21,870 bases of DNA from Candidatus Helarchaeota archaeon (GTDB taxonomy: Archaea; Asgardarchaeota; Lokiarchaeia; Helarchaeales; HEL-GB-A), in NCBI GenBank assembly GCA_016840125.1, contig JAEOSY010000082.1, positions 1 to 21,870 on the forward strand, read 5' to 3'. Made by a program: the position numbers and the translations under genes. The notes beneath the pieces are model-generated. The model was given only the letters and a program-made list of their open reading frames with translations, made no database searches and was not told the origin of the DNA. Shown here in pieces: positions 1,735 to 21,425 of this stretch; position 1 is the stretch's first letter; each line of letters opens with the position of its first letter.

Positions 1735-3729
1735 TTATGGATTACCAAAGAGTTCCTTAATTTTGGCTCTGAGGACTTTACCTACGGGTGATAGAGGTAA
1801 TTTGTTGGTAAAAACGACAGACCTTGGTTTCTTGTAACCCGCAACTTTTCCAACGCACCACTGGATGATTTCCCCCTCAGTAATATCAACGTTTTTACGC
1901 GGCACAACCACTGCCCGGACTGTTTCCCCCCAATCCTCATCTGGCACTCCAATTACACAGACATTATCAACCTTAGGGTGGTCTAGGATGACCTCTTCCA
2001 CCTCTAGTGGGAAGATTTTTTCGCCGCCACTATTAATACACGCTTTTTTTCGTTCAACCGTATAAATCTCGCCATCAGGTCCCCGATACGCTAAATCTCC
2101 TGAATGAAACCAGCCATGGTCATCGATTGCTAGCTTTGTTTTCACTTCATCCTTGTAATATCCCTTCATTATTGTGGGTCCCCGATACCATATTTCCCCA
2201 ATTTCCCCGTCCGGTAAGTCCTTCCCCTCCTCATCGACAATTCGCACCTCGATTCCCGTAAGTGTTTGGCCGACGGATCGATCTTTAACTTTGGTTTCAT
2301 CCGCGCTCAATTTAATAGAAGTAACTGGAGCCATTTCCGTTTGGCCAAAGGCATCAAGCACCATTGCATTGGGAAAGTGGTGGAGAATCTGCTTCTTATA
2401 CTTAGCTCGCATTAACGCGGCACCAGTAACTGCAATCTTAATTGAGGATAGATCATATTTATCAATATCCGGATGCTCTAGAAGACGCTTCCACATCGTG
2501 GGAACGAGGAAGATAAAAGTAACCCGCTGTTTTTCGATTAATTGTAATACTTCACCGGGTTCAAAGCTTTTTGACTTCGGGAATACAATCGGACTCCCGG
2601 AATACAACCATTGAACCATGAATAGCGCATAACTTGCCAAGTGAAAAAGTGGAGGAATAATCAACATCGTCATTTTCTTTTGCCCTTTCGGAGCTTTCAT
2701 TAATGCTCGGATCATCGCTACCCGGACATCAAAAGCTCCTGAAATTTTAACACCGCCCAGCAAAAAGCGATAAAGTAATTTGGGAAAGAGCTCCAGCCGT
2801 CCCCTCATAGTGTATTTAAAAGGAATTAGATTCACGAAATCCCGTATATGGTCCCCGATATGCCCGTATAGCTTGGCATCCCACCGATTCGGCTTACCAG
2901 AGAAAAATTTCAGTTTCCCTTCTTTAGTTGCCATCGTAATAGGGGGGAGTCCTGGACCTTTCTTCAGAGGGGCCTCGTATACAAATACTTTATCGCGAAG
3001 GGTGGGATCGCTCATAAAATCAAAAATGGATCCGCCGAACATCCCTGCTGCTAACTCGATTTTCCTCTCGAACTCGCTCTTCGCAAAATAATTCTTCTCT
3101 ACATCCTTTGCTGAAGGTAAAAGTCTCATCAAAAAATTGAATACTGCCTCTTGATTATATTGGATACTATGGTACGACAGCATAACACCTTTACTTCTCC
3201 CTGTCGTACCTCCGGTATAGCAGATTAATGCAAGGTCCTCCTCTGATAAGCGTGGTCTGACGTGTAACTCTATATTATAGCTGTCTTCAATCAGACTTTC
3301 ATAATCTAGGTAGCCATTATGAGAACCATTACCTTGGCATATGAAATATTTTACGTTTGGCGTATTTTTCTGTACTTCTTCAACCACAGGGAGTGCTTCA
3401 TTTTCAAAAATTAGGCATTTGGCATCACAATTATTTAGAAGATATTCCAATTCATTTGCAACATATCTATAATTCACAGGCACTGGGATTGCTCCAATTC
3501 CTTGAATCGCAACATTCGTCTCGACAAAGGCTGGGGTATTATGAAACAGAATTGCGACTTTATCGTCCTTTTTAATCCCTAAGCTCCTTAACCCGTTCCC
3601 TATACGATTAACTCTCTCATTTAATTTGTGCCATGTAATTCTATCCTCCCCATAGATGATAGAAACGTGATCCTTCGGGAGATATTTCGCTTTAATCGCA
3701 ATCGATTCTTTAAAAGGACTAATCCGCAT
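1735..3729 (-). CDS. AMP-dependent (long-chain-type) acyl-CoA synthetase with large insertion, 664 aa
   Basis: This is an ANL-superfamily adenylate-forming enzyme that would activate a carboxylic acid with ATP and join it to CoA. The motifs are in order: P-loop YTGGTTGRSKG (171-181), PPLFH (359-363), the A5 motif FGQTE (461-465), GWFHSGDLA (539-547) and PLSPVGKVLR with the catalytic Lys651. The family is usually about 500-560 aa. Here the interval from the P-loop to PPLFH is about 180 residues instead of roughly 40, because of an extra block at about 205-345 that has no recognisable motif. The ATG at 3729 has AAGG 7-8 nt upstream. The gene is monocistronic and convergent with the HEAT gene. 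A second, partial synthetase lies at the right edge of the window. The substrate cannot be read from the sequence. Confidence 0.9.
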   Translation of the reverse strand: MRISPFKESIAIKAKYLPKDHVSIIYGEDRITWHKLNERVNRIGNGLRSLGIKKDDKVAILFHNTPAFVETNVAIQGIGAIPVPVNYRYVANELEYLLNNCDAKCLIFENEALPVVEEVQKNTPNVKYFICQGNGSHNGYLDYESLIEDSYNIELHVRPRLSEEDLALICYTGGTTGRSKGVMLSYHSIQYNQEAVFNFLMRLLPSAKDVEKNYFAKSEFERKIELAAGMFGGSIFDFMSDPTLRDKVFVYEAPLKKGPGLPPITMATKEGKLKFFSGKPNRWDAKLYGHIGDHIRDFVNLIPFKYTMRGRLELFPKLLYRFLLGGVKISGAFDVRVAMIRALMKAPKGQKKMTMLIIPPLFHLASYALFMVQWLYSGSPIVFPKSKSFEPGEVLQLIEKQRVTFIFLVPTMWKRLLEHPDIDKYDLSSIKIAVTGAALMRAKYKKQILHHFPNAMVLDAFGQTEMAPVTSIKLSADETKVKDRSVGQTLTGIEVRIVDEEGKDLPDGEIGEIWYRGPTIMKGYYKDEVKTKLAIDDHGWFHSGDLAYRGPDGEIYTVERKKACINSGGEKIFPLEVEEVILDHPKVDNVCVIGVPDEDWGETVRAVVVPRKNVDITEGEIIQWCVGKVAGYKKPRSVVFTNKLPLSPVGKVLRAKIKELFGNP

Positions 3730-4270: not shown

Positions 4271-5737
4271 ATGCTCACCACCACCATTTTTCGCTTGCAC
4301 CCCTCGGAAGCCCAGATCGCGAAGCTCAACGAGATCTTCGTGATCTACAATCGGGTGAAGCGAAAGGGATACAAACTTCTCTTTGCGGGGAAGAGGGGAA
4401 TTCAGCAGAAACTCATGAAAGTCTGTCGTAATAACCCCTATGTCAATACCATTATGATTGAGAATAAAACCAAGTTAAAGCAGCAGAAAACGTGGCTGGA
4501 GAAAAACAAGACTCGTCTTAGGCGGAAAATTGAAGTCGTGGCAGGAAAAATTACTGCAATCAAAGAGAAGAACCCGAAGGATCGGAGACTCAAAGGGCTG
4601 TATCGCCACTTATCTTCGCTCCAAAGCCGAGTGGCGTCACTGGCACTCAAACCCATCGTCTTTGGCACGAAAAGCTTGTTTCGGGAGCGTATTCGGGGGA
4701 AAATTTCTAGGGAGGAATTTCTCATTTGGCGGGACGCGTCGTTTGGCTGCGTGGGAAAGGCGCAGGGTGGGGTGCAGAATAACAATTTGAAGCTCTTGCC
4801 CAGCGAGGAATTGCGGATTTCGACCTTCCAGAAAATGAAGGGGAGGATTCCGAAGCGCCTGCATGTGCCGCTCGCGGTGAATCCAACCCAGAGGGCAGCA
4901 TTCCACGAACTCCTCCAAATGGATAAATACACCGTGGTCGTCAAGCGGAAATTCGTCAAGGGGGAAGTGCGGTATTACGCTCACGTGTCCTATGACACGC
5001 CTGAACCCACTACGCGCTTTGAATTTCAGCACGGGACGATTGGGCTGGATTTCAATTACAATTTCATCGTTCTCGTCAATATTGATAAAGAGGGGAAGTT
5101 TTTAAGTTATCAGCAAATCCCGTTTCGGAACTTGCACTCCTATCGCAAGGGTCGACGGGACGATTACGCGAGTTTCAAGATGGAGAAAGTTATTAATTAT
5201 TGTCTGAATAAGAGAAAGGGATTGATTATGGAAGACCTCTCCTTTGACCAGTCCTTTTCCTATAATAAGAAGCGTAATCGGAAAGTTACTCAATTGAAAA
5301 CTTCGATGCTCCCCCTGCTGGAGCGCAAGTGCGCTCGGCGGGGCATCGCAGTCAAAAAAGTTCACCCTGCATACACTTCAATCATCGGCGAATTGAAGTA
5401 TTCACGTTCATTTAATTTGTCCAGGCACGTCCTGGCGAGTTATGTGATAGCTCGGAAAGGTTTAGGGTTCACGGAATCACTTCCAGCCTTCTATAAGCGG
5501 GTGCTCGCACAAGTCGGGGGCGCTTTAAAACCCCGTTTGAAACCGAGCAGTCCCTACTATCAGTGGGCGCAACTCTACGACCTTTTCAAGCACTGTGGGA
5601 TAACCTCCTTCAACCCTTCGGAGACTCCTTCCTACAAGCCTGAGGCGATTGTGAAGAAGTTATTGATGCATGGGGCGAACCCGGCGACGGGCACACAGCC
5701 GGATAACCTTACGGCTGGTCTACTCGCTTGCGGGTAG
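4271..5737 (+). CDS. tnpB: TnpB-family RNA-guided nuclease-like protein, 488 aa
   Basis: TnpB proteins are omega-RNA-guided nucleases carried by IS200/IS605 elements. The N-terminal part (1-190) is basic and helical. The RuvC core shows motif I at GLDFNYNF (Asp260) and motif II at LIMEDLSFDQ (Glu321). Motif III is the variant HPAYTSIIGELKY...LSRHVLASYVIARK (365-396), which has no Asp between 365 and 401. The CxxC zinc-ribbon cysteines normally placed between motifs II and III are absent. This matches the TnpB-related group with HPAYTS/NPAYTS and IARR/IARK signatures rather than canonical TnpB. Catalytic competence is therefore uncertain. The C-terminus (HGANPATGTQPDNLTAGLLACG region) is encoded by DNA that folds into three hairpins and probably is the omega-RNA. 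Start at ATG 4271; no clear ribosome binding site. Confidence 0.88.
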   Translation: MLTTTIFRLHPSEAQIAKLNEIFVIYNRVKRKGYKLLFAGKRGIQQKLMKVCRNNPYVNTIMIENKTKLKQQKTWLEKNKTRLRRKIEVVAGKITAIKEKNPKDRRLKGLYRHLSSLQSRVASLALKPIVFGTKSLFRERIRGKISREEFLIWRDASFGCVGKAQGGVQNNNLKLLPSEELRISTFQKMKGRIPKRLHVPLAVNPTQRAAFHELLQMDKYTVVVKRKFVKGEVRYYAHVSYDTPEPTTRFEFQHGTIGLDFNYNFIVLVNIDKEGKFLSYQQIPFRNLHSYRKGRRDDYASFKMEKVINYCLNKRKGLIMEDLSFDQSFSYNKKRNRKVTQLKTSMLPLLERKCARRGIAVKKVHPAYTSIIGELKYSRSFNLSRHVLASYVIARKGLGFTESLPAFYKRVLAQVGGALKPRLKPSSPYYQWAQLYDLFKHCGITSFNPSETPSYKPEAIVKKLLMHGANPATGTQPDNLTAGLLACG

Positions 5738-6897: not shown

Positions 6898-7110
6898 ATG
6901 GCAAAAGTCAAACAAGTTATCACCAAAACTGCTTTGCGAAGATTGATGAAACATGAAGGGCGTGCCGATATCGTGGCATTAAATGCAGTACTTTCGCTCC
7001 AAGAGCATTTAAATGATACTGCCATCGGAATTACGACGAAAGCACTCGCCCTAGCGAAACACGCTAAACGTAAGACAATTACCAAAGCAGACATCAAATT
7101 AGCTATTTAG
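6898..7110 (+). CDS. Archaeal histone, 70 aa
   Basis: This is a single histone fold that would dimerise and wrap DNA. The closest family signature is the C-terminal KHAKRKTITKADIKLAI, matching the RHAGRKTIKAEDIELA of HMf-type histones (loop 2 with the R-K-T DNA contact, then helix 3). Helix 1 is around residues 8-18 (TKTALRRLMKH), the loop carries GRADI, and the long helix 2 covers about 25-54. Length is typical of the family (65-70 aa), without extra tails. GAGGGAG ends about 5 nt before the ATG, a strong ribosome binding site. A run of eight T at 7129-7136 soon after the stop is a likely terminator. Confidence 0.92.
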   Translation: MAKVKQVITKTALRRLMKHEGRADIVALNAVLSLQEHLNDTAIGITTKALALAKHAKRKTITKADIKLAI

Positions 7111-11696: not shown

Positions 11697-13103
11697 TTAA
11701 GTGAGGGTTGTATGGCCAATTCCCCACGCTTCATCAAAAACAAGATTCTTGATCGGCGGAGGAGTTCGTTGCTTGGTGGCAAAATTTGGGGCGTCACCTG
11801 CTTCTCCAACGCACAACATCGTTAGAGGTGGCCAGCTCCAGGGGATGCCTAAATGTGTCACTAATTGTTCATTGCGCCGAAATTCAGCAATAGGATAGAG
11901 ATTTATTTGTGTTTCTAATCCTAAGGCTTGAGCTGCGAGGCGCATGTTTTGGATGCCACACCCAGTAGCAGTTGACCAGATATAATCAATACCACCTGGG
12001 AGCGTCCCTGCCACGTGCGCATACTCCACCCAATCCTTCGCGAACGTTGTGAGGATTATCGCATCGCATTCTAACGGATATTTCCATCCCTCCGCCATCA
12101 TCCATTCTACATACTCAATGATTTGATCTTCTGGGATATGCGGATGGTGGTTTTTAGTTTGCTCGATACTAGCTCGATACTGTTGAATATAAGCTTCCTT
12201 TGTACAATTAGCAACAAACTCTTTCGTTTTTTCATCCCGAATAACGATATGGCGCCAATGATTCAAGTTTTCGGGGTTTGGCGACCAGATCCCGCAGTGT
12301 AACATTTTTTCCAGTTTCCAATCTTCAACCTCAGCGCTCTTATCAAATTTATAGCAGTTTCGAACACCTTTAATGGTTGCCGAAATGTCTTTTGTGGGAA
12401 TTACTATCTCAGATGTATCCGAACGAAAGCCACTTCGAACGAACCGACTTCCCCAATGATCGAGAAACGCAATTCCCTCTAAGCTTGCACGCGAGGGTCC
12501 GACACTCCTGGCAGAAACCCTATCACCAAAGCAGTAAGCTGCACACATTTGCCAGCTCATAGGCACCCCTGAGAAATTTGAAAACAATTCTCTACGCCGA
12601 ATATCATTTAAAGGCATTGCATTACAGCCAGCGCCCCACCCGAGGTTATTAGCAGTCAACCACATGTTTTGAAGAGCCATACCGCCAACCGCGGTGGCTT
12701 GCTCCATATACGGAACACGCGAATCAAACCACGCCCCTTTAGTAATGCATGGGATCACAATAAAATCAGATTCAATTGGGTACTTCCACAACTCTCCGGT
12801 CTGGGTATATTCTGCGATGGTCGGTCGCCGATTCTCAGGCAAATACCAGAGATGGCCACTAAAAATCTCATACGACTTCCCAAAGATCATATGCGCGACT
12901 TCCTGGGCAAATTCAGCCAGTAGATTCTTCGTATCTTGATCTTTTATCAGCAAAAATCTCCATTGTGGAATACCCTCTATTTGAAATGCATAACGAGCAG
13001 CGTCCAAGATCTCTTCTACATGTTTACCCGGTATCTTTCTCCCTTTTTCTCCTTTGAAGCGGCGTTCACTTCTCCGCGTATATATACATTCCCATACATC
13101 CAT
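11697..13103 (-). CDS. Tandem double-nitroreductase-domain protein (operon A), 468 aa
   Basis: Two nitroreductase (FMN-binding) domains are fused head to tail, at about 3-220 and 240-465. Domain 1 has the phosphate-binding YTRRSERRF (8-16), but the usual SPNNAQPWRF is replaced by IEGIPQWRF. In domain 2 the RRSxRxF motif is lost (GVRNCYKF, 246-253), while SPNPENLNHWRH (274-285) remains. Each half ends with the A/G-rich helix LQNMWL or IQNMRL followed by a G-C-N-x-x-P or similar stretch. Nitroreductase-family enzymes are FMN oxidoreductases acting on nitro compounds, quinones, enones or halogenated aromatics; with domain 2 degenerate this copy may bind only one FMN. It is the last gene of operon A: its ATG is 2 nt after the SCP2-like stop, with GGGAGG about 9 nt upstream inside that gene. 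Paralogue at 16500-17948. Confidence 0.85.
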   Translation of the reverse strand: MDVWECIYTRRSERRFKGEKGRKIPGKHVEEILDAARYAFQIEGIPQWRFLLIKDQDTKNLLAEFAQEVAHMIFGKSYEIFSGHLWYLPENRRPTIAEYTQTGELWKYPIESDFIVIPCITKGAWFDSRVPYMEQATAVGGMALQNMWLTANNLGWGAGCNAMPLNDIRRRELFSNFSGVPMSWQMCAAYCFGDRVSARSVGPSRASLEGIAFLDHWGSRFVRSGFRSDTSEIVIPTKDISATIKGVRNCYKFDKSAEVEDWKLEKMLHCGIWSPNPENLNHWRHIVIRDEKTKEFVANCTKEAYIQQYRASIEQTKNHHPHIPEDQIIEYVEWMMAEGWKYPLECDAIILTTFAKDWVEYAHVAGTLPGGIDYIWSTATGCGIQNMRLAAQALGLETQINLYPIAEFRRNEQLVTHLGIPWSWPPLTMLCVGEAGDAPNFATKQRTPPPIKNLVFDEAWGIGHTTLT

Positions 13104-13105
13104 CT

Positions 13106-13492
13106 TCAGTTTCCTCCCAAACTCTTAATCTTTCCCATGACTTTTTCAAAAGTTAAACCCTCATTCAAATTGCCCCAGACCATGACGTTCTTCTGTTTCA
13201 ATTCCGAACCTAGCCGCTTCTCCCCTCTTACAATCCCTAAAATTGTGTCAACACTTCCAATTATCATCGTATCAAAAGCTGGATATTCTCCGACGTTTAA
13301 TCGTGCCTCTTCAGTCGTAAAGATAACATGATAATTCTCTTCCTTGCTTTCCGACCTGATTTTCCAACCAATGATCTTACCATATTTATCATCAATCCAT
13401 CGATTTACTATGGTCTGTGCCTCTTTTTTGGAATTTACCGTGGAGATAACTGAATCTAGGATGGATTTAAATTCTTGAATATCATTTGGCAT
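13106..13492 (-). CDS. SCP2-like sterol/lipid-carrier domain protein (operon A), 128 aa
   Basis: Residues about 45-125 show the SCP2 pattern. A beta strand YHVIFTTEEARLNVGEYP is followed by DTMIIGSVDTILGIVRGEK, a helical part, then a strand KNVMVWGNLNEGLTFEKVM (the family's G-K-I-x-I-x-G-D/N). SCP2 folds bind fatty acyl chains, sterols or similar hydrophobic molecules in a tunnel. The N-terminal 40 residues form a charged helix, and KYGKIIGWKI is shared with the paralogue at 15577-15966 (KIIGF). There is no transit or signal peptide. It is the third gene of operon A, starting 5 nt after the preceding stop. It probably carries the hydrophobic substrate of the neighbouring nitroreductase; this is inference from context. 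Confidence 0.75.
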   Translation of the reverse strand: MPNDIQEFKSILDSVISTVNSKKEAQTIVNRWIDDKYGKIIGWKIRSESKEENYHVIFTTEEARLNVGEYPAFDTMIIGSVDTILGIVRGEKRLGSELKQKNVMVWGNLNEGLTFEKVMGKIKSLGGN

Positions 13493-13497
13493 TAAAT

Positions 13498-13752
13498 CTA
13501 CCCTTCTTTAACCCACTTTTTGAGCGCCTCATCCGCGGCAAGATGGATCGTAGCTGGTGTTGCTTTACCATATTTTTTCTTGACTAGTTCAATGAATTGA
13601 TCTCCAAAATCATAATCCAACACAACGGTTATTCTCAGCTTCTGGTTATCTTCAAAGTATTTTGCCAAGGTAGGAAAATTTTCCACTAAAGTTGGCTGGT
13701 ATTTTTCGATATCTTCCTTCTTAATCCTAGGCCGACCTAACCATTCTGACAT
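13498..13752 (-). CDS. Small conserved protein 2, possible ribbon-helix-helix fold (operon A), 84 aa
   Basis: The N-terminal half begins MSEWLGRPRIKKEDIEKYQP and is nearly the same in the operon B copy (15976-16242, MSEWLGMPRITEEDIEKYQP). The C-terminal half is a strand (LRITVVLDYD), a helix (FGDQFIELVKKKYG) and a second helix (LAADEALKKWVKEG). That order is what a ribbon-helix-helix domain looks like, but it is a weak call. AGGAGG 11-12 nt upstream of the ATG is the ribosome binding site. It lies between small protein 1 (15 nt gap) and the SCP2-like gene (5 nt gap). No catalytic motif is seen; role unknown, perhaps a subunit or DNA-binding regulator of the cassette. Confidence 0.7.
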   Translation of the reverse strand: MSEWLGRPRIKKEDIEKYQPTLVENFPTLAKYFEDNQKLRITVVLDYDFGDQFIELVKKKYGKATPATIHLAADEALKKWVKEG

Positions 13753-13767
13753 TTCTTTATCTTCCTC

Positions 13768-14007
13768 CTACTTTAACTCATTTTCCTTTAATTTAATTAC
13801 TCGTGAGGTATATTTGGGAAAATCAATGATTACTCGTTTCCCGGGACCTTCTGGCCACGTACCTCCATAGACTTTCCCTTGATAGGTAAACTCTTCAAGG
13901 ATGTGTTTGCACATTCTCTGAAGACTCACACCAATATCATTTGCCATGTTTAATAATTTCGATTGGGCTTCATCTTCTAGTTGGAGTTCTAAATTTCCCA
14001 TTTTCAT
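13768..14007 (-). CDS. Small conserved protein 1, ribbon-helix-helix-like (operon A), 79 aa
   Basis: Residues 3-40 show strand (LELQLED), helix A (AQSKLLNMANDIG) and helix B (SLQRMCKHILEEF), which fits the RHH/Arc-type DNA-binding fold. The second half has GKVYGGTWPEGPGKRVIIDFPKYTSRVIKLKENELK, of which G-x-W, GPG-x-R, ID-x-PK, S-x-VIKLK and LK are shared with the copy in operon B (16239-16478). The in-frame GTG at 14010, ATG at 14007 and ATG at 14001 are all possible starts; none has a Shine-Dalgarno site. A minus-strand TATA box at 14063-14072 fits a short leader. It is the first gene of operon A, divergent from the SDR gene. It may be an autoregulator or a structural partner. Confidence 0.65.
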   Translation of the reverse strand: MKMGNLELQLEDEAQSKLLNMANDIGVSLQRMCKHILEEFTYQGKVYGGTWPEGPGKRVIIDFPKYTSRVIKLKENELK

Positions 14008-14062
14008 CACTTAACGCATTTAATTCCTTTTTTTTTGAATGTTATCTATCTCTCTCTTAGAA

Positions 14063-14072
14063 TTTTATAAAT
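14063..14072 (-). promoter_or_regulatory. TATA box for operon A (minus strand)
   Basis: ATTTTATAAA read on the minus strand, about 60 nt before the first gene of operon A. The core is near-palindromic and could also serve the divergent SDR gene. Confidence 0.4.
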
Positions 14073-14154
14073 CTTACAGACTAACTCGGGTAGAAACTGG
14101 ATGAAATACTTGCCAACAACTTTTAACCCCTATTCCCACTAACCTCATAATACT

Positions 14155-14160
14155 GAGGTG
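14155..14160 (+). promoter_or_regulatory. Ribosome binding site deciding the SDR start
   Basis: GAGGTG lies 7 nt before the TTG at 14168 but only 1 nt before the in-frame GTG at 14162, which favours the TTG. Confidence 0.5.
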
Positions 14161-14167
14161 TGTGAAA

Positions 14168-15022
14168 TTGAGTGACTTGGATTTGATGAAAGGAAAAATA
14201 TGCATGATTACAGGAGCTAATTCGGGAATTGGAAAAGCTACTGCGTTAGAACTTGCAAAGATGAATGCTCATATAGTGATGGTGTGTCGAAATGAGGAAA
14301 AAGGTTTGATAGCTCAAGAGGATATTAAAACTAAAAGCGGGAATCAAGCGATTGATTTATTACTTGCGGATCTCTCCTCTCAGCAACAGATCCGCGATCT
14401 TGCTACCGAATTCAAACAGAACTATTCGCAATTAGATGTCTTAATCAACAATGCTGGTATCATTTTAAACAAACGCAAACTAACCGTTGATAATATCGAA
14501 TGGGTTTTTGCCGTGAATCACTTAGCCCCCTTCTTGCTAACGAATTTATTACTCGATATGATTAAAAATAGCGCTCCAGCACGAATTATTACGGTCAGTT
14601 CCAGGGCCCATAGCAATAAGATTGACCTCGATAATTTACAGTTGGAAAAAGGGTTCACCACCTTCAAGGCATACGCATGGTCCAAACTATGTAATATTCT
14701 CTTTGCCTACGAACTCGCCAGACGTCTGGAGGGCACGGGGATCACATCCAATGCCTTACATCCTGGAGGCGTTAGAACAAATTTCGGTCATAGTATGACA
14801 GGAATATTTAAAATTGGTATGTATATTGCAGCTCCCTTTTTGAAGAGTCCTAAAAAAGGTGCCATCGCCTCTATTTATCTTGCATCTTCCCCTGACGTTG
14901 AAGGCGTGACTGGGAAGTATTATATAAAGAAAAAAGCAGTGAAATCGTCCAAAATCTCCTACGATGAATCCGTTGCAAAACGTCTGTGGGAGATAAGTGC
15001 TGAATTAACAAATATAAGTTAG
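14168..15022 (+). CDS. Short-chain dehydrogenase/reductase, retinol-dehydrogenase-like, 284 aa
   Basis: A classical SDR with all key motifs: TGANSGIG (15-22) for NAD(P) binding, CRNEE after strand 2 (Arg suggests NADPH), LADLSS, NNAG (94-97), the catalytic Ser in VSSRAHS (about 145) and YAWSK (Tyr169, Lys173), then LHPGGVRTNF. The best-matching subgroup is the retinol dehydrogenase/WW-oxidoreductase-like SDRs, which oxidise or reduce hydrophobic alcohols and ketones. Length is usual for the group. The start is taken at TTG 14168 because GAGGTG is 7 nt upstream; GTG 14162 is the alternative. It is divergent from operon A and followed 14 nt later by the longin-like gene, probably in the same transcript. 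Confidence 0.88.
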   Translation: MSDLDLMKGKICMITGANSGIGKATALELAKMNAHIVMVCRNEEKGLIAQEDIKTKSGNQAIDLLLADLSSQQQIRDLATEFKQNYSQLDVLINNAGIILNKRKLTVDNIEWVFAVNHLAPFLLTNLLLDMIKNSAPARIITVSSRAHSNKIDLDNLQLEKGFTTFKAYAWSKLCNILFAYELARRLEGTGITSNALHPGGVRTNFGHSMTGIFKIGMYIAAPFLKSPKKGAIASIYLASSPDVEGVTGKYYIKKKAVKSSKISYDESVAKRLWEISAELTNIS

Positions 15023-15036
15023 AAGAAAGTATTAGG

Positions 15037-15580
15037 ATGGATCAAAATAATTCGTAACATTTTCATCATAAAGAATGGAGTCCCTCTACTAACTCGGAAT
15101 TTTGGGGAATGTCAATCCCTCGGTTCAGACGTTCAATTAATAAGTGGCTTTATCAGCGCACTTCAGTCATTCTCAGAAGAAGTCACAAAATCTGAAATAA
15201 AATCCATCAAATTTGAAGAATTCAACTTCAATTTTTTTAAGACATCTGAGTTAACCGACATTCTTTTTGTCTTTGTTTCAGAGATGGCGGATGATCCAGC
15301 TGAAATTCAATTTAAAATAAAACGTATTGCAGCTCTATTTAGTGACTTGCACAATGACGATGCTAAGCAATTTAATGGGAATACTGAAAAATTTGATACC
15401 TTTGGTGACACTCTCATCGCAATGAATTTAGCCCAAAAAAACTGTGGCGGGCGTCCTGAATGTGAAGGCTGTCCAAATAGTCTTAAAACTAGTAAAATTC
15501 TCGATGCTTTCAAAAAGGATAAAAGGAGCTTTCTTACCCGGATTAAATCCTTCTTTAGGAGAGCAAAAAAAAGAGATTAA
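15037..15580 (+). CDS. Longin/roadblock-like domain protein with a frameshift near its start, about 180 aa
   Basis: The main frame, read to TAA 15578-15580, encodes RNIFIIKNGVPLLTRNFGEC, then QLISGFISALQSFSEEV, EIKSIKFEEFNF and DILFVFVSEMADDP. This is the pattern of the longin/roadblock-like domains frequent in Asgard proteins and linked to small-GTPase regulation. The open frame reaches back to the SDR stop with no ATG, GTG or TTG before the ATG at 15284, which lies in the middle of the domain. Removing one A from the AAAA run at 15044-15047 joins ATG 15037 to the domain as MDQIIRNIFIIKNG. The tail has a cysteine motif (NCGGRPECEGCP) and a strongly basic end (FFRRAKKRD), perhaps for membrane contact. 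It is either frameshifted, mis-sequenced, or translated by a frameshift. Confidence 0.65.
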
Positions 15581-15966
15581 GATTGTAGTTTTGAAGCGAA
15601 TTTTTGCATGATCGGGACGCAGACAGTATTCAATGCTAAGAGCTCATGGAAATTCCCCCGAATCCAGATTTTCCCCTCGGTCATTGCCGTCTTGGTATAT
15701 TCGAAACCTTTGAGTAGGAAGTTATACCACGTTTCCGGATCGGTGAGGATAATTGTCTCGCTGGCAGGGTATTCTCCCAGACCGAATTTAGCAGTCCCAT
15801 CTCTCATGAAGATAAGGTGGTATTTTTTCGCCCCGAAATCGAACCCGATTATCTTCCCGTAATAGTTGCTCACCCACTTCCTGACGCGTTTTTGAAAGCG
15901 CTCCTTGCTATTTATCTGTTCTATGGTGTCTCTGAGGATTTGTTCCATATCCGATACTGTTACCAT
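15577..15966 (-). CDS. SCP2-like sterol/lipid-carrier domain protein (operon B), 129 aa
   Basis: It has the same architecture as the operon A copy: an N-terminal charged helix, KWVSNYYGKIIGF, then the SCP2 core YHLIFMRDGTAKFGLGEYP, ETIILTDPETWYNFLLKGFE and EGKIWIRGNFHELLALNTV. It is closer to the standard SCP2 pattern (titls-d-p-e-t-w ... G-K-i-x-i-x-G-d) than the operon A copy and may be the less diverged one. It is expected to bind a hydrophobic ligand in the cytosol. It is the last gene of operon B, with its ATG 9 nt after the stop of small protein 2 and GTGAGGATT as ribosome binding site. Its stop overlaps by 4 nt the 3' end of the longin-like gene on the other strand. Confidence 0.78.
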   Translation of the reverse strand: MVTVSDMEQILRDTIEQINSKERFQKRVRKWVSNYYGKIIGFDFGAKKYHLIFMRDGTAKFGLGEYPASETIILTDPETWYNFLLKGFEYTKTAMTEGKIWIRGNFHELLALNTVCVPIMQKFASKLQS

Positions 15967-15975
15967 GTTTAATCC

Positions 15976-16242
15976 TCACTTGGATTTCTTCTCTATCCAA
16001 AGTTCCAGGGCTTCTTTCACTGCTGCTTGGACATTGATGGGGTTGATGCCGTCAGGACCGTACTCTTGCTTTAGTACAGCCCGGAACTTGTCAGCGAAGT
16101 CCCAATCCAAGATCAATGAGACCCGAAATTTCTGATTATCAATGAAATACTTCGTTAATGCGGGAAAATATTTGGTAATCATCGGTTGATATTTTTCTAT
16201 GTCTTCTTCAGTAATGCGCGGCATTCCCAGCCATTCACTCAT
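15976..16242 (-). CDS. Small conserved protein 2, possible ribbon-helix-helix fold (operon B), 88 aa
   Basis: Paralogue of the 84-aa protein of operon A. Strictly shared blocks are MSEWLG-x-PRI, EDIEKYQP, a KYF-x-DNQK stretch, and the strand-helix-helix part (RVSLILDWDFADKFRAVLKQ, then VQAAVKEALELWIEKK). The four-residue insertion before the last helix is the main difference. Its ATG overlaps the stop of small protein 1 by 4 nt, with AGGAGG as ribosome binding site, so the two are translationally coupled. The conserved first 20 residues, without an obvious fold, may be a binding segment for the SCP2-like or nitroreductase partner (inference). Function unknown. Confidence 0.7.
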   Translation of the reverse strand: MSEWLGMPRITEEDIEKYQPMITKYFPALTKYFIDNQKFRVSLILDWDFADKFRAVLKQEYGPDGINPINVQAAVKEALELWIEKKSK

Positions 16243-16478
16243 TTTAAGTCCTCCTTTTTTAGTTTAATTACAGGGGATGAAAATTTGGGCCAGTCGATGA
16301 CGAATCGACGCGCTCCGGGTCCTCCACGGTACCAACTTCCCCAGTAGAGATTTCCATCTTCGGGGAACATTTCGAGAATTAACTCACAAAACCGTTTTAA
16401 ACTCAACCCATTCTCTTTTGCCATATGCTCTAACTGCTCAGTCGCATCCTTTTTAATATTTAAATTCAAATCTTCCAT
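16239..16478 (-). CDS. Small conserved protein 1, ribbon-helix-helix-like (operon B), 79 aa
   Basis: Starts MEDLNLNIKKDATEQLEHMA, then KENGLSLKRFCELILEMF: a strand and two helices as in RHH DNA-binding proteins. The second half, YWGSWYRGGPGARRFVIDWP and SSPVIKLKKEDLK, matches the operon A copy in G-x-W, GPG, ID-x-PK and VIKLK. The ATG is 21 nt after the nitroreductase stop, with AGGTGAAAG upstream, so it follows that gene in the same transcript. It overlaps small protein 2 by 4 nt. It may bind the promoter of either operon or form a complex with its neighbours; the sequence cannot decide. Confidence 0.68.
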   Translation of the reverse strand: MEDLNLNIKKDATEQLEHMAKENGLSLKRFCELILEMFPEDGNLYWGSWYRGGPGARRFVIDWPKFSSPVIKLKKEDLK

Positions 16479-16499
16479 TATTCTTTCACCTATAATTCA

Positions 16500-17948
16500 T
16501 TAATCCTTGATATGTTGGGGAACATAATGATTGCCCCAGGTTTCCTCGAACACGAGGGTGGAAAGAGGAAATCGTCGTGGGGGTTTCGGGGATTCATTCG
16601 GCTCACCTATACAAAATGCACCCAACGGCTCCCAAGAACGCGGGATTGCTAAATGATCACATAGGATCTCTTGCCGCCGAATATCGCTCATCGGGAAAAC
16701 GTTGAAGGCACCACCCAAACCAAGCGCGTGTGTCGCTAACCACATGTTCTGCAGCCCGGCGCCCGTTGCCGCAGCCCAGATGTGGTCAATTCCACCTGCA
16801 ATCGATCCCGGATACTCAAACCAAGACGTTCGGGAATAGCACGGGATGATAATGGTGTTACAATCACCTGGATATTTCCAGATCTCGGATCTCATGAGTT
16901 CGAGATGTTCCAACTTATCCTCCTGTGGAATGCCCAAGGCGTCCATGTGCCCGCTCTGGATCTGAAATTGCCCCATTCGGTATGCTAGGTTATGGAACTC
17001 GCGATTAAACTCCATGATCATGTCCTTGGTAGCTTGATTTTGGATCACGAGGAATCTAAAATGATTTAGGTTTTCAGGGTTTGGACACCATTTGATTGTG
17101 TCCAAAATCTTCTCTAACTTCCACCGAGGAACTTCCACATCGCGTTTAAATTGTCGAACACTCCGCCGCTTGTGGATCGCGTCCGATAAATTCACCCGAG
17201 GCAATTCGCCAATCATGTAATTCTCTTCAAATCCCATGCGAACCCAGCGTTCGCCCCACGTCTCCTTAAAAACCAATCCCTCAAAGGGAGCGCGAGAGGG
17301 TCCAAGCATCCGCGCATGTTCAGGCGTACCTACGGCGAACGCACCCAATGGGATCCACGAAGGAGGGATACACATTAATTCGGAGAACAATTCGCGCCGT
17401 CTAGCGTCTGAAAGGGGCATCGCATTGAACCCTGCACCTAGCCCGAGGCTGTAAATAGTCAACCACATATTCTGCAAACTCATGCCGATGGACATGGGCC
17501 ACCCGGCATCTTGCGAACCGACGGTTGCGTAACTGTCCATCCACGCCCCTTTACTGAAACAGGGCACGATGATGAAGTTCGCTTCTTTGGGGTATTCCCA
17601 GAGAACCCCTGTCTGCGTATACTCCGCTATCCCCGTCAAGCGATCCTTTGGAACATACCAGAGGTGCCCAAAGAAGATCTGGGCAGATGCTCCGAAGATC
17701 AAGTGTGCCATCTCTCGCCCGAAATCAGCTAATAAGTTCCGCATTGCATCGCTCTTTATTAGGAGAAATCGCCATGGTTGGGCGTTGTTCGGGGAGGGCG
17801 CCCAACGTGCTGCTTCGAGAATTACCTCAACTTTCTCATCTGAGACGGGTAAAGGTTTCCCGTTATCGTCAGTCTTAAATCTTCGCGTGCTCCGTCGCCC
17901 GTAAATAGCTTCAAACAGTTCCATCTCGAGTATATCCGAACCTGACAT
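16500..17948 (-). CDS. Tandem double-nitroreductase-domain protein (operon B), 482 aa
   Basis: Two complete nitroreductase domains are fused (about 8-235 and 252-475). Domain 1 has YGRRSTRRF (16-24) and APSPNNAQPWRF (50-61), both classical FMN-site motifs. Domain 2 has HKRRSVRQF (259-267) and CPNPENLNHFRF (288-299). Each half then has GLGAGFNAMPLSDARRREL-like or GLGGAFNVFPMSDIRRQE-like C-terminal FMN contacts. Unlike the operon A copy, both halves look intact. Nitroreductases normally work as dimers with FMN at the interface, so the fusion may be an internal pseudo-dimer. The substrate is unknown. It is the first gene of operon B, with GGAAGTGA as ribosome binding site 8 nt before the ATG at 17948 and a TATA-like TAGTATAAAG further upstream on the minus strand. 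Confidence 0.88.
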   Translation of the reverse strand: MSGSDILEMELFEAIYGRRSTRRFKTDDNGKPLPVSDEKVEVILEAARWAPSPNNAQPWRFLLIKSDAMRNLLADFGREMAHLIFGASAQIFFGHLWYVPKDRLTGIAEYTQTGVLWEYPKEANFIIVPCFSKGAWMDSYATVGSQDAGWPMSIGMSLQNMWLTIYSLGLGAGFNAMPLSDARRRELFSELMCIPPSWIPLGAFAVGTPEHARMLGPSRAPFEGLVFKETWGERWVRMGFEENYMIGELPRVNLSDAIHKRRSVRQFKRDVEVPRWKLEKILDTIKWCPNPENLNHFRFLVIQNQATKDMIMEFNREFHNLAYRMGQFQIQSGHMDALGIPQEDKLEHLELMRSEIWKYPGDCNTIIIPCYSRTSWFEYPGSIAGGIDHIWAAATGAGLQNMWLATHALGLGGAFNVFPMSDIRRQEILCDHLAIPRSWEPLGAFCIGEPNESPKPPRRFPLSTLVFEETWGNHYVPQHIKD

Positions 17949-18235: not shown

Positions 18236-19063
18236 TTATTCAGATAAAATTGGCTCTCCTCGTTTCCAAATATCATCAAAATAAGGTACTAAATCTTCAT
18301 ATAGCTTTTTATTGACCATATAAATGGATAATAGAAAATCTTCGTACGGTTTGGTGGGATGTCTCATGAGTAATATCACTTTGTTAAGATCGAACAATCC
18401 GAAAGGAACCTGTATATCTTCTTTTAAAATACGTATCTGGTTTTTTGCATCAATTTTTCTGGGACGAGTACGAACCCAATCCATTATCTTTGCCTTTTCC
18501 TGATTGGACCTATAACCGATTATTAGTTTTGTTGTAATCTTCTTTTTTTTGAAATTCAAACTAATTTCTTCAGCCATTTTCCCGGTGGCCATTTTTTCCA
18601 ACATATTATCATCAATACAAATAAAAGAAGAAAAATCTACGAACCTAAACCTTGAAATATGCCTGTTGAAAATCTCAGATTCGTTGATTGTGACGTTCCA
18701 GAAAACTGCATCCGTTTCGTAGGTTTTTATTCTACTTTGCAAAAATTCTTTTAATTTGGGTAATTTACCCTTAAATCCAACATATTCTTCTCGCTTTTTT
18801 TGTCTCAAACTTTCAAGTGCTAAATCCAAGGCAACTGGGCGATATTTTTTTGGTCTCGATTGTTGAATTTCGATTAACCCTAAATCTTCCAACTTTTCTA
18901 ATATATTGTAGATTTTGCTAGAGGGAATATGGGTTTTTGAACAAATCTCTTTTGCTTCAGATAAATCCATCGATATTACTGTTAAATAGGTATAAATTTC
19001 ATTTTTTGATAAGCCAAATTCTCGTAAGATCTCATATTCAGTGAGATGATCATCTTCTGCCAT
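18236..19063 (-). CDS. TrmB-family transcriptional regulator, 275 aa
   Basis: The N-terminal winged helix-turn-helix is at about residues 8-75: LREFGLSKNEIYTYLTVI, then CSKTHIPSSKIYNILEKLEDLGLI and a wing with SRPKKYRPV. This is the TrmB pattern (Gly-Leu-Ser/Thr-x-x-E-x-x-x-Y). A coiled-coil linker follows (80-110), then a PLD-like C-terminal sensor domain (about 117-270) of the kind that binds sugars or other small ligands in this family. GAGGAAG is 5 nt upstream of the ATG. It lies upstream of operon B on the same strand and is divergent from the nitronate monooxygenase-like gene across 136 nt. It may therefore control either; the 18-nt repeats between it and operon B are possible targets. 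The ligand is unknown. Confidence 0.85.
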   Translation of the reverse strand: MAEDDHLTEYEILREFGLSKNEIYTYLTVISMDLSEAKEICSKTHIPSSKIYNILEKLEDLGLIEIQQSRPKKYRPVALDLALESLRQKKREEYVGFKGKLPKLKEFLQSRIKTYETDAVFWNVTINESEIFNRHISRFRFVDFSSFICIDDNMLEKMATGKMAEEISLNFKKKKITTKLIIGYRSNQEKAKIMDWVRTRPRKIDAKNQIRILKEDIQVPFGLFDLNKVILLMRHPTKPYEDFLLSIYMVNKKLYEDLVPYFDDIWKRGEPILSE

Positions 19064-19185
19064 AATCTTCCTCGAATCTACTTTATCTCATCGATTTTTT
19101 AATACGAATGTTTTTTTCAACAATTCCTTTCTACCATTTAGAAGTAGACAATTATTTTAAGTTTGTTTACTCCAGAGAATTATCT

Positions 19186-19193
19186 AAGGAGAC
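19186..19193 (+). promoter_or_regulatory. Ribosome binding site deciding a TTG start
   Basis: AAGGAGAC, with GGAG ending 8 nt before the TTG at 19200, fixes that codon as the start of the FMN enzyme. Confidence 0.7.
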
Positions 19194-19199
19194 GATTTT

Positions 19200-20228
19200 T
19201 TGATTCATACGGAATTATGTGATTTATTAAACATCAAACACCCGATAATCCAAGCCGGGATGGGACCATTCTCGACGAAGTTACTGGCGATTGCTGCATC
19301 CGAAGCTGGAACTTGTGGTTTAATAAGTCATTCTGGTGGTCCCTTAATGGGATTTGAAAAACCTGTACCCGAAATAATGGAGGATGCCATTGATGAAGTT
19401 GCTAAGAAAACGCAGTATACCTTTGGGGTAAATGTACGGGTCGCAAAAAATCAACCCGATGCGAAAAAATGTATCAAAATGATCTGTGATAAGGTGCAGG
19501 GCGACTCAGATCTCGCTAAAAAACTCAGGGTTGTAGTAACGTCTGCGGGGGATCCAATAGGTGGCACGAAAAAAGGTGGATCATGGACCCAACAATTGCA
19601 CAGATCTGGAATTCTCCATTTTCATGTGGCGGCAGCGACCAAGCATGCTTTAAGAATTCAGAAAGGTGGCTTGGACGGCGTCATCGCTTCAGGTTATGAA
19701 GCAGGTGGACATATCGCTTTAGATCCTGTACACACTTGGGTTTTACTTCAAGGGATTGTGAAAGCTGTAAAAATACCCGTCATTGCCGCTGGAGGAATGA
19801 CCGATGGGAAGAGTCTAGCTGCCGCACTCGCAATGGGCGCCGTTGGGATTCAAATGGGGACCCGGATGATCGCCACAAAAGAGAGTGATTTTAAAGATAA
19901 CTACAAAGAAGCCTTCACGGCTGCCCAGGAAACGGCTACTACCGTCATGCCAGGCTTCTTCTCCCCACATTGTCGTTATCTCGCCAATGAATGGACTGAA
20001 GGGCTAGAGAAAATGATGGCCGAGAATGCTTCTGAGGATGCTCTGCTAAAGTTTAAAGCGGAAGGGCGAAAATTAGCTGCCGAAATCGGGGATAAACGTG
20101 GAAGCCTTTTGTGCGGTCAAGTGACGGGATTAATTGAAGATGTTCCAACCGTAAAGGAATTAGTTGATAGAACCATTCAAGAAGCTGAAGAGATCATTAA
20201 AAAAATGCCCTCCTATATCAAATCCTAA
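19200..20228 (+). CDS. Nitronate monooxygenase/FabK-like FMN enzyme, 342 aa
   Basis: TIM-barrel FMN protein of the nitronate monooxygenase/2-nitropropane dioxygenase and enoyl-ACP reductase II group. It starts with LCDLLNIKHPIIQAGMGPFST, has the SHSGG loop (43-47), GYEAGGHIALD (165-175) with the active-site His171 of the family, IPVIAAGGMTDGKSLAAALA (193-212) and GAVGIQMGTRMIATKES, the FMN phosphate site. It could oxidise nitronates or reduce enoyl thioesters; the tools to separate these are not in the sequence. TTG 19200 is the start. It is divergent from the TrmB-like regulator and ends in a run of eight T. Confidence 0.88.
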   Translation: MIHTELCDLLNIKHPIIQAGMGPFSTKLLAIAASEAGTCGLISHSGGPLMGFEKPVPEIMEDAIDEVAKKTQYTFGVNVRVAKNQPDAKKCIKMICDKVQGDSDLAKKLRVVVTSAGDPIGGTKKGGSWTQQLHRSGILHFHVAAATKHALRIQKGGLDGVIASGYEAGGHIALDPVHTWVLLQGIVKAVKIPVIAAGGMTDGKSLAAALAMGAVGIQMGTRMIATKESDFKDNYKEAFTAAQETATTVMPGFFSPHCRYLANEWTEGLEKMMAENASEDALLKFKAEGRKLAAEIGDKRGSLLCGQVTGLIEDVPTVKELVDRTIQEAEEIIKKMPSYIKS

Positions 20229-20232
20229 TCAC

Positions 20233-20240
20233 TTTTTTTT
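20233..20240 (+). terminator. T-run terminator after the FMN enzyme gene
   Basis: Eight consecutive T, 4 nt after the stop codon of the nitronate monooxygenase-like gene. Confidence 0.45.
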
Positions 20241-20312
20241 AAGCATCATAAAAACCAATTATAAAGGATGGATACTAACAAATAAATTAACATAGACACG
20301 AGGCTGAGGTTT

Positions 20313-20900
20313 TTGAGCGATAGCAATAAAGTAAATAACCAAATGAATATAGCCAAAATTTTGATAATGGGATTAGATAACAGCGGTAAGACTTCCATTT
20401 TATTGAGTTTACAGCACGAAGTCAATTTGCTGACTTATTACTCATTAAAACCAACCCCTGGGTTAAATATTGTTACGATTGATAAAGAAGATAAGAAATT
20501 TATCATATGGGAATGTGGGGGGCAGCAACAATATCGAGACGAATATCTACAAAATTTGGAGAAATATATTCAGGAAACGAAAAAATTCATCTACGTTATT
20601 GATGTTCAAGATATTGACCGATATAATACGGCACTACAATATTTTGCTGACATCTTGAAAATGATGAGTAGCGAAGATATGAAAAATATTCAATTGAGTA
20701 TATTTTTGCATAAATTTGACCCTGGTCTTGACAAAAAGGAAGATTTCTCCTACAAAAAGATTTCATTACGACTTATCGATAGGATCAGTACTATCATTCC
20801 TTCAGATATTAACTATTATATATTTAGGACTACTATATACACGATCTTTGAAAAGAAGCTCCTCGAAAGCGTCGCGGATGAAATTTTTACTATTTTATGA
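20313..20900 (+). CDS. Small Ras-superfamily GTPase, Arf/Rag-like, 195 aa
   Basis: G-domain motifs in order: G1 GLDNSGKTS (20-28), G2 in PTPG (47-50, Thr48), G3 WECGGQQQYR (66-75) where the usual Asp of DxxGG is Glu67, and G4 HKFD (133-136) where Asn is replaced by His. WxxGGQ with a GLDNSGKT P-loop is Arf-like, while HKxD is the form found in Rag/Gtr GTPases. No C-terminal prenylation CaaX and no obvious lipid anchor is visible. Such GTPases are a hallmark of Asgard archaea. The TTG start (20313) has GAGG 9 nt upstream; the in-frame ATG at 20343 is an alternative. It is convergent with the hexapeptide protein, 15 nt away. Confidence 0.85.
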   Translation: MSDSNKVNNQMNIAKILIMGLDNSGKTSILLSLQHEVNLLTYYSLKPTPGLNIVTIDKEDKKFIIWECGGQQQYRDEYLQNLEKYIQETKKFIYVIDVQDIDRYNTALQYFADILKMMSSEDMKNIQLSIFLHKFDPGLDKKEDFSYKKISLRLIDRISTIIPSDINYYIFRTTIYTIFEKKLLESVADEIFTIL

Positions 20901-20915
20901 TACCGTATTCGCAAT

Positions 20916-21425
20916 TCATTGTGATTCTTTATATTTTTGAGCGATCTCTCTAAATGTTTTTTTGGCAATTTCCCTTATTGTGAGGTCCCGTTCTGTAATA
21001 TCTCGTTTCTCTTTGGCGGGAATTCCTACCCAGACTTTCCCCTTTGGTATCGTGCCTTTCGCGATGAAAGACATTGCTCCAATCATACACTCAGCCTTAA
21101 TCTTTACGCCAGGCATGATCAAGGATCTCGCCCCTATTATTGAATTTTCCCCAATAATCGCACCATGTATAATGGACCCAAAACCGATGAGACAATTCTC
21201 GCCAATTTTAGTCCGATTGCCAGCCGCAGGATTAATTATTACCCCATCCTGAATTACTGTTCCAGATTTTATAATTACAGGGGCAATATCTCCGCGAATA
21301 ACTCCACCTGGAAAAATTACAACATTTTTCTCGATCTGAACGTCCCCATAGACAACTACATCATCCGCAATCCATGTATTCGGATCTATTTCCGGTTTTT
21401 TCTCACCATAATTATAAGTTTTCAT
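20916..21425 (-). CDS. Gamma-carbonic-anhydrase-like hexapeptide protein, probably without carbonic-anhydrase activity, 169 aa
   Basis: Left-handed beta-helix with hexapeptide repeats from VVYGDVQIEKNVVIFPGG to GVKIKAECMIGAMSFI, then a C-terminal helix (TIREIAKKTFREIAQKYKES). It belongs to the YrdA/PaaY/gamma-CA group: VIRGD (Arg44, Asp46) and QDG (Gln59, Asp60) are kept. Against the Cam enzyme, the zinc ligand His81 corresponds to Asn65 here and His117 to Phe82; only His122 (His87) remains. Thus the usual three-His zinc site is not present. The ATG at 21425 has AAGGAG 8 nt upstream. Length is normal. It may act as an acyl- or acetyltransferase or a scaffold. Confidence 0.85.
   Translation of the reverse strand: MKTYNYGEKKPEIDPNTWIADDVVVYGDVQIEKNVVIFPGGVIRGDIAPVIIKSGTVIQDGVIINPAAGNRTKIGENCLIGFGSIIHGAIIGENSIIGARSLIMPGVKIKAECMIGAMSFIAKGTIPKGKVWVGIPAKEKRDITERDLTIREIAKKTFREIAQKYKESQ

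Follow-up and report, generated by a model that had tools for sequence, protein, structure and literature searches.

What do two copies of the same four-gene set, arranged in different orders, encode in an Asgard archaeon, a member of the group related to our own cell lineage? This question is raised by a stretch of 21,870 nucleotides from Candidatus Helarchaeota archaeon (GenBank assembly GCA_016840125.1, contig JAEOSY010000082.1, positions 1 to 21,870 of the forward strand; hereafter, the window), which carries two such sets, cassettes A and B. Each cassette has genes for a tandem flavin mononucleotide (FMN)-type protein of the nitroreductase superfamily (NTR; the protein is called NR below), for two small proteins (S1 and S2) and for an SCP2-family protein (SCP). 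An original prediction, made from the DNA letters of the window, described the two small proteins as ribbon-helix-helix (RHH)-like and saw in the four genes a conserved functional unit acting on a hydrophobic substrate. The analysis given here turns this local oddity into a sharply defined gene system in 61 of the 227 Asgard genomes searched. As a working reading, which we regard as close to an even call, the cassette encodes one heteromeric FMN enzyme in which S1 and S2 would be obligate subunits and the SCP2 protein would present an acyl or lipid substrate.

Linkage and distribution of the four families

The set of 227 Asgard genomes was searched with profiles of S2 (A13) and S1 (A14), and the SCP profile is A12, which does not include the SCP of locus L039. 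Places were counted as strong at an E-value of 1.3e-14 or better for S2 and 1.6e-18 or better for S1. At these cut-offs, S2 has 69 strong places in 60 genomes and S1 also has 69 in 60, which together make up the 61 genomes, about a quarter of the set. S1 lies immediately upstream of S2 on the same strand at 68 of the 69 strong S2 places; the exceptions to the linkage are an S2 that starts at base 2 of its contig (G217) and an S1 followed only by a fragment of S2 (G076). All four families are present at 67 of the 69 Asgard places, and the other two places are cut by contig ends. The original prediction had called for a search for co-occurrence in other genomes, and the outcome is clear: S1 and S2 show one-to-one linkage in the Asgard set, with NR and SCP adjoining wherever the contig allows.

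The four-family annotation covered all S1 and S2 places, the window and the Chloroflexota loci described below, with duplicate loci (L004-L038, L108, L111 and L152) uncounted. All four families were found in 72 of the 78 annotated groups, two of them from the window and three from Chloroflexota. The order NR-S1-S2-SCP was observed in 49 groups (including L003 of Chloroflexota, where NR is cut by the contig start), the same order with S1 and S2 fused in 15, and with a tandem NR in four. The order S1-S2-SCP-tandem NR was seen in two groups, namely cassette A of the window and that of the Helarchaeota genome Hel_GB_A, while SCP-tandem NR-S1-S2 (L040) and S1-S2-SCP-NR (L048, NR cut by the contig end) occur once each. 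Two further groups, L084 and L100, start at a contig end and miss their upstream part, and the remaining four groups, three with S2 only and one with S1 only, are weak matches. NR-S1-S2-SCP prevails, and the arrangement of cassette A is one of its rarely seen permutations. All observed orders are circular permutations of one another, a pattern that tandem duplication followed by loss would be expected to produce.

In 16 cassettes, S1 and S2 form one open reading frame of about 175 amino acids (aa) (L072:8783-9310 and 15 further loci). This natural fusion may go back to one event, because all 16 cassettes come from genomes with neighbouring handles (G198-G215). Two to four cassettes, each kept as a whole set, were found in six genomes (G001, G080, G081, G082, G162 and G168). 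Weak matches were set aside: the nine of S1 all fall within its RHH head, with no S2 nearby, and of the nine of S2, six cover approximately positions 32-83, two run from 11 or 18 to 82, and one is the cut S2 start in G076. Around two of the weak S2 matches (L099 and L101), the other three genes were absent in both cases.

Outside the Asgard archaea, the cassette is carried by three loci of Dehalococcoidia (Chloroflexota). Matches were obtained in four of 294 Dehalococcoidia genomes, one of them weak and confined to the C-terminal half, and in one of 400 evenly drawn Chloroflexota genomes. A scan of genome contigs for S2 patterns gave three loci, one from Helarchaeota and two from Chloroflexota; the patterns follow the MSEWLG form of S2 and miss other forms. 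In searches of 5.8 billion proteins, all matches bearing an organism name were Asgard (Helarchaeota, Freyarchaeota, Baldrarchaeia, Lokiarchaeia, Jordarchaeum and Hodarchaeota), and most matches bore no name. No S2 relative was found in the viral contigs searched, and viral spread of the cassette was rejected on this result.

Cassettes A and B of the window

As listed in Table 1, the eight open reading frames of the window cassettes are all on the minus strand, where the original prediction had placed them, and form two homologous four-gene sets. Cassette B runs from 17948 to 15577 in the order NR-S1-S2-SCP, and cassette A runs from 14010 to 11697 in the order S1-S2-SCP-NR, so the predicted permutation of NR stands, with the order of the three small genes kept. 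The gaps inside each cassette are at most 21 nucleotides, and S1B and S2B overlap by 4 nucleotides. All four pairs match by BLASTP at 29-51% identity. The motifs quoted in the prediction were found again: GPG-x-R, ID-x-PK and VIKLK in S1, MSEWLG-x-PRI and EDIEKYQP in S2, and YGKIIG and GEYPA in SCP. Both NRs are full-length tandem proteins, as had been claimed, since the N and C halves match each other by BLASTP with 38% identity in NRB and 25% in NRA.

Table 1. Genes of cassettes B and A and of the adjoining regulator in the window; A-versus-B values are from BLASTP, each E-value being that of a one-sequence comparison
Gene	Description	Positions	Strand	Size and evidence
NRB	Tandem NTR FMN-type protein	16500..17948	-	482 aa; PF00881 E 1e-42
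S1B	RHH head and conserved tail (G-x-x-Y-x-G-x-W...GPG...R...D-x-P...S)	16239..16478	-	79 aa; CopG match of family profile; family alignments
S2B	Orphan protein, MSEWLG start, possible RHH-like C-terminal half	15976..16242	-	88 aa; family alignments; no own Pfam match
SCPB	SCP2-family protein	15577..15966	-	129 aa; included in the SCP profile A12, with matches among solved SCP2 structures
S1A	S1 of cassette A	13768..14010	-	46% to S1B, E 2e-22
S2A	S2 of cassette A	13498..13752	-	51% to S2B, E 2e-33
SCPA	SCP2-family protein of cassette A	13106..13492	-	29% to SCPB, E 9e-18; PF02036 20.5 bits, cut-off 21.3
NRA	Tandem NTR protein of cassette A	11697..13103	-	468 aa; 46% to NRB, E 2e-144; PF00881 E 3.9e-25
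TrmB	TrmB-family transcription regulator, directly upstream of cassette B	18236..19063	-	PF01978 E 1.5e-18; 69% match in Hel_GB_A (L001 7334-8161)

A short-chain dehydrogenase gene lies on the plus strand between cassettes B and A. The TrmB protein is a candidate regulator and stands outside the membership of the cassette. The closest relatives of the window S1 and S2 that bear an organism name are from Helarchaeota, and Hel_GB_A (L001) has both cassettes in the identical two gene orders.

The small proteins and a possible regulatory role

Among solved structures, the S1 profile matches CopG at positions 2-41 with an E-value of 4.5e-6 and, more weakly, ORF56, Reg576, AvtR and Arc; by this profile match, the head of S1 is a CopG-type RHH domain. 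Single members seldom show it: one of 22 matched a Pfam RHH family (E 0.0069), two of 28 S1 search matches bear the NCBI name ribbon-helix-helix, and the members scanned against Pfam and NCBIfam are at best recognised as generic RHH proteins. In the family alignments, the tail of S1 is more conserved than the RHH head, and the head is mostly acidic, with a median net charge of −3 and a charge at or below zero in 67 of 73 members.

S2 begins with MSEWLG in Helarchaeota, Chloroflexota and some others, with a variant elsewhere, and this start is strongly conserved within the first two groups. The S2 members scanned in Pfam and NCBIfam reached no family, and the S2 profile had no support among PDB structures. 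In a predicted model, the second half of S2 has two consecutive C-terminal helices after a conserved hydrophobic stretch, and an hhalign comparison placed S2 on S1 in the same register with a P-value of 0.024 and a probability of 2%, which suggests at most that S2 is RHH-like. The claim of two RHH-like small proteins is thus borne out for S1 by its CopG match, and for S2 it stays a suggestion.

The SCP2-like assignment of the carrier, also made in the prediction, held: PF02036 was matched at an E-value of 1e-3 or better by 25 of 30 SCP members, and the SCP profile matched the solved SCP2 proteins 3cnu (E 1.6e-9) and 3bn8 (E 4.3e-8), AF_1534 being the closest. SCPB alone gave no match in Pfam. 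By these matches, SCP is an SCP2-family protein.

The main alternative takes S1 and S2 as a DNA-binding RHH pair that would control its own operon upon sensing a ligand by way of SCP or NR, leaving the chemistry to NR and SCP only. RHH proteins are usually transcription factors, which counts for this alternative together with the CopG match and its weaker companions. The trifunctional PutA flavoenzymes, moreover, carry an RHH repressor domain, according to the source cited (PMC5293562). The acidic S1 head and the conservation of the tail over the head point the other way, although neither is decisive. In the 69 upstream regions, inverted repeats were not enriched, the mean longest arm being 5.48 against 5.41 in mononucleotide shuffles, the only kind of shuffle compared; this is a weak test, and on it the candidate upstream operator was dropped. 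A TrmB regulator already adjoins cassette B, and near-perfect linkage to NR and SCP would, in our judgement, be unusual for a mere regulator. We consider autoregulation unlikely, and it is still the strongest competitor of the reading in which S1 and S2 are subunits of an FMN enzyme.

A toxin-antitoxin role of S1 and S2 was also tried and rejected: no toxin was seen, NTR and SCP2 partners are present in 72 cassettes, and the best antitoxin model reached 13.8 bits against a cut-off of 60, in a comparison made without the PADLOC library.

The NR protein and its predicted FMN site

The cut-off of PF00881, 23.5 bits, is well exceeded by NRA (89.4), NRB (146.6) and the single NR of L058 (87.9). The NR of most Asgard cassettes is a single unit with a median gene length of 253 aa, and the tandem NR is the exception. 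Of the 65 NR rows treated as single units, a count that takes in two rows cut by contig ends, 63 have an Arg-Arg-Ser motif and 63 a Pro-Ser-x-Glu-Asn loop; we take the loop to be the part of the FMN site contributed by the partner subunit.

In the seven tandem NRs with both halves readable, at least one Arg motif and at least one Pro loop are kept, with a partial form in L002 and L040. In NRB and in the orthologous protein of Hel_GB_A, both halves have retained the Arg-Arg-Ser motif as well as a Pro-x-Pro-x-Asn loop. By contrast, the cassette A NRs of the window and Hel_GB_A and the Chloroflexota NRs of L002 and L078 have only the Arg motif in the N half (RRAAR in L002) and only the P-x-P-E-N loop in the C half, and L040 has the reverse pattern, a partial Arg motif being left in its N half. 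All five degenerate tandem NRs, which come from three lineages, have what is left of the Arg motif in one half and of the Pro loop in the other. In NTR enzymes such as NfsB, both monomers contribute residues to the FMN site at the dimer interface (PMC10051150, PMC11203732), and the tail of FMN is held in NfnB by an R-x-S-x-R motif (PMC8484813). Because the surviving motifs are split between the halves, the degenerate tandem NR is read as a covalent pseudo-dimer, in which one shared FMN site is predicted to be kept and the other lost.

None of the curated NCBIfam sub-families was reached by NR. Among the PDB structures, the NR profile matched albonoursin synthase (8uc3_A, E 9.4e-12) and the enone reductase CLA-ER (4qlx, E 2.6e-6). 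The curated models nearest to NRB are those of FbiB, whose C-terminal domain acts in F420 biosynthesis, and of BluB. A second alternative therefore makes NR a cofactor-making enzyme like BluB or the C-terminal domain of FbiB, with the small proteins serving that pathway. It draws on the bit scores of NRB with these models, 97.7 and 93.2 for FbiB and 93.3 for BluB, and on one cassette each in G080 and G081 that follows cobalamin-operon-like genes, as judged by eye. However, the scores fall well short of the curated cut-offs (304 and 249.55 for FbiB, 150 for BluB), the cobalamin context is confined to two related loci (L043 and L045) among the 44 cassette loci whose surroundings were surveyed, and an SCP2 protein has no obvious place in such a pathway. 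A cofactor-making NR is improbable on this balance.

Acyl-CoA genes near the cassettes

The neighbourhoods were compared by means of profiles of eight acyl-CoA families, applied to 44 cassette loci and to 40 control regions taken from 12 of the genomes that carry them; the families were chosen because they recur near cassettes, and related genomes are not independent. At least one family was present in 34 of the 44 cassette loci against 8 of the 40 controls, and at least two were present in 25 against 1. The density of acyl-CoA genes was 1.88 per 10 kb near cassettes and 0.15 in the controls. In the 23 loci outside one large clade (sorted by eye), 14 had at least one family, compared with the 8 of 40 controls (Fisher p 0.002).

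In the large clade, the cassette is followed downstream by genes for 3-hydroxyacyl-CoA dehydrogenase, enoyl-CoA hydratase, thiolase and a DUF35 (ChsH2-like) protein; upstream of it there are often genes for an ADP-forming acyl-CoA ligase and for a DRTGG protein. Acyl-CoA dehydrogenases or CoA transferases are near the cassette in L003, L040 and L078, thiolase and DUF35 in L048 and L049, and AMP-forming ligases in L001, L055, L057 and the window, where the distance from cassette A to the large one is about 8 kb. This 664-aa ligase (1735-3729) has its AMP-binding domain in two Pfam stretches, suggesting a long internal insert.

The large-clade cassettes, surrounded by genes of beta-oxidation and an acyl-CoA ligase in a locus that has no acyl-CoA dehydrogenase, could suggest a non-orthologous replacement of that enzyme, but this is highly improbable and was discarded, as PF02770 is present in 206 of the 227 Asgard genomes and in all 61 cassette genomes (lists compared by eye), and acyl-CoA dehydrogenase genes are in the same locus as the cassette in L003, L078, L040, L055 and L057. 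Because the dehydrogenase is found in all cassette genomes, the cassette is not a substitute within beta-oxidation and would be an addition to it.

Some further features of the surroundings were recorded. One or two proteins of about 320 aa (cluster c8) are encoded divergently upstream of the operon in the large clade (L056 10950-12918, L072 1992-3978, L076 15013-16014), and the one member scanned had no Pfam match. In L043 (4420-7993, G081) and L045 (G080), the cassette stands after cobalamin nucleotide-loop-assembly-like genes and before a formaldehyde-activating-enzyme-like gene, as judged by eye. At 18236-21425 of the window, nitronate monooxygenase and hexapeptide-repeat genes beyond TrmB are common to Hel_GB_A, unlike the genes that separate cassette B from cassette A. 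The window also contains a TnpB-like transposon protein of 488 aa (4271-5737; a Cas12f1-like_TNB match below the cut-off, otherwise judged by eye), a 70-aa open reading frame that looks archaeal-histone-like by eye (6898-7110), and a small GTPase of the Arf / Gtr1-RagA type (20313-20900), as expected in an Asgard archaeon.

History of the cassettes

In the NR tree, Helarchaeota cassettes A and B group together by their N halves (96/90) as well as by their C halves (100/99), which indicates, as far as the tree goes, that the NR tandem is older than the split of A and B. The N halves of A and B join the Chloroflexota N halves and L048 (94/89). The Chloroflexota C halves are placed beside the N half of L040 (92/90) instead of joining the Helarchaeota C halves, and the two halves of L040 are apart; these placements, on long branches that the tree program flagged as unsure, speak against a single simple history. 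In the tree of S1, S2 and SCP combined, rooted at the midpoint only, Chloroflexota and Helarchaeota A and B come together (98/97), with A and B as weakly supported sisters (86/66). The trees fit one whole-cassette duplication in the Helarchaeota line, the origin that the prediction had proposed to examine: the halves of NR group well, and the sisterhood in the combined tree is weak. They also fit a transfer between Asgard archaea and Dehalococcoidia in either direction.

The window proteins share 58-89% identity with their Hel_GB_A orthologues, with nonsynonymous divergence (dN) of 0.08-0.28 by the NG86 method. Synonymous divergence (dS) was computable in two of the eight pairs (1.5 and 3.7) and was taken as saturated in the others. 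The comparison fits purifying selection on both cassette copies.

Proposed mechanism

In the proposed enzyme, NR would form an NTR-type dimer with FMN at the subunit interface, and the dimer would be replaced by the covalent pseudo-dimer in Helarchaeota, L040 and Chloroflexota. The splitting of the motifs in the tandem NRs agrees with this step, because it is expected when a site is shared across an interface. S1 and S2 would pair, probably through their RHH parts, and the conserved S1 tail and S2 N-terminus would attach to NR, where they would shape the active site or cover it. An acyl or lipid substrate would be carried or presented by SCP. Chemically, the enzyme would probably use FMN either to reduce or to create a C=C bond in an acyl or lipid molecule, as an intermediate connected with the degradation of acyl-CoA. 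The predicted functional unit is supported as an association, and its hydrophobic substrate would follow from the SCP2 assignment and the acyl-CoA neighbours. In favour of the enzyme are the near-complete linkage of the four genes, the natural S1-S2 fusions, the whole sets kept in genomes with several cassettes, the conserved S1 tail and S2 start, the SCP2 assignment and the enrichment of acyl-CoA genes nearby.

Several results weigh against such an enzyme. The nearest solved relatives of S1 are DNA-binding repressors. The predicted model of the fused S1-S2 protein (predicted local distance difference test score 84, predicted template modelling score 0.48) shows no paired RHH ribbon, and a Foldseek search with it gave no match at an E-value of 0.001. 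The likeness of NR to characterised enzymes is generic. Most of the enriched loci are from one clade of related genomes, with families picked for their recurrence, and 10 of the 44 cassette loci have none of the eight families, some of them lying beside cobalamin-, HypF- or tryptophan-like genes.

The RHH fold is known mainly from DNA-binding repressors. In the fullest form of the reading, Asgard archaea would have a new kind of flavoenzyme for acyl or lipid processing, in which an RHH pair is indispensable to an NTR FMN dimer both structurally and at the active site, and an SCP2 carrier supplies the dimer. The system would be ancestral to several Asgard lineages, its extra copies would have arisen as complete cassettes, and it would have been transferred between a few Dehalococcoidia and the Asgard archaea; this we put forward as tentative and rather doubtful in its entirety. 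The original interpretation as a whole is supported.

Comparison with known systems

The cassette fits none of the specific families tested and only three superfamilies, NTR, SCP2 and RHH. In agreement with the prediction that no described system has this composition, the open-licence literature gave no description of the four-gene system among the matches listed, and the word nitroreductase is absent from the main text of the Helarchaeota genome paper. To our knowledge, FbiB and BluB have no RHH or SCP2 partners. We likewise know of no S1 or S2 partners of TyzC, which works with O2, or of CLA-ER, whose substrate is a fatty acid.

Each of these and other systems is similar to the cassette in part. 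TyzC is an NTR enzyme that desaturates an acylated compound, N-acyl-tyrosine, and the cited text adds a proposal that NTR oxidases desaturate lipids (PMC10404671). CLA-ER is also of the NTR family. UbiJ of ubiquinone synthesis has been shown to bind intermediates and UbiT has been proposed to do so (PMC6747719, in the passages cited); as SCP2 proteins holding hydrophobic intermediates for partner enzymes, they may serve as an analogue for substrate handling by SCP, but differ in partners and pathway. In PutA, an RHH domain is coupled to a flavoenzyme by fusion and represses transcription (PMC5293562), whereas S1 and S2 are separate proteins, and S1 has an acidic head with a conserved tail.

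The best working analogue, judged by likeness, is the cyclodipeptide oxidase AlbA/AlbB of Streptomyces noursei, an NTR-fold FMN enzyme with an obligate small partner, in which residues of both proteins make up the active site (PMC11055893). As an NTR enzyme that needs a small partner, it is the precedent supporting S1 and S2 as partners of NR. According to the same passages, it is C=C-forming, and its small-partner gene adjoins, often in overlap, with natural fusions, as in the cassette; however, AlbB is a four-helix protein that dimerises to an eight-helix bundle, whereas the cassette has two small proteins, one of them RHH-headed, in addition to SCP2. AlbB was absent from the S1 and S2 profile matches at an E-value of 10, a sequence comparison that cannot exclude a match in fold. 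If the proposed enzyme is real, it would add to these systems a new architecture of the NTR superfamily, a role of the RHH fold away from DNA and a new redox step in the acyl-CoA metabolism of Asgard archaea, and Asgard fatty-acid handling bears on the hydrocarbon-degrading lifestyles proposed for these archaea.

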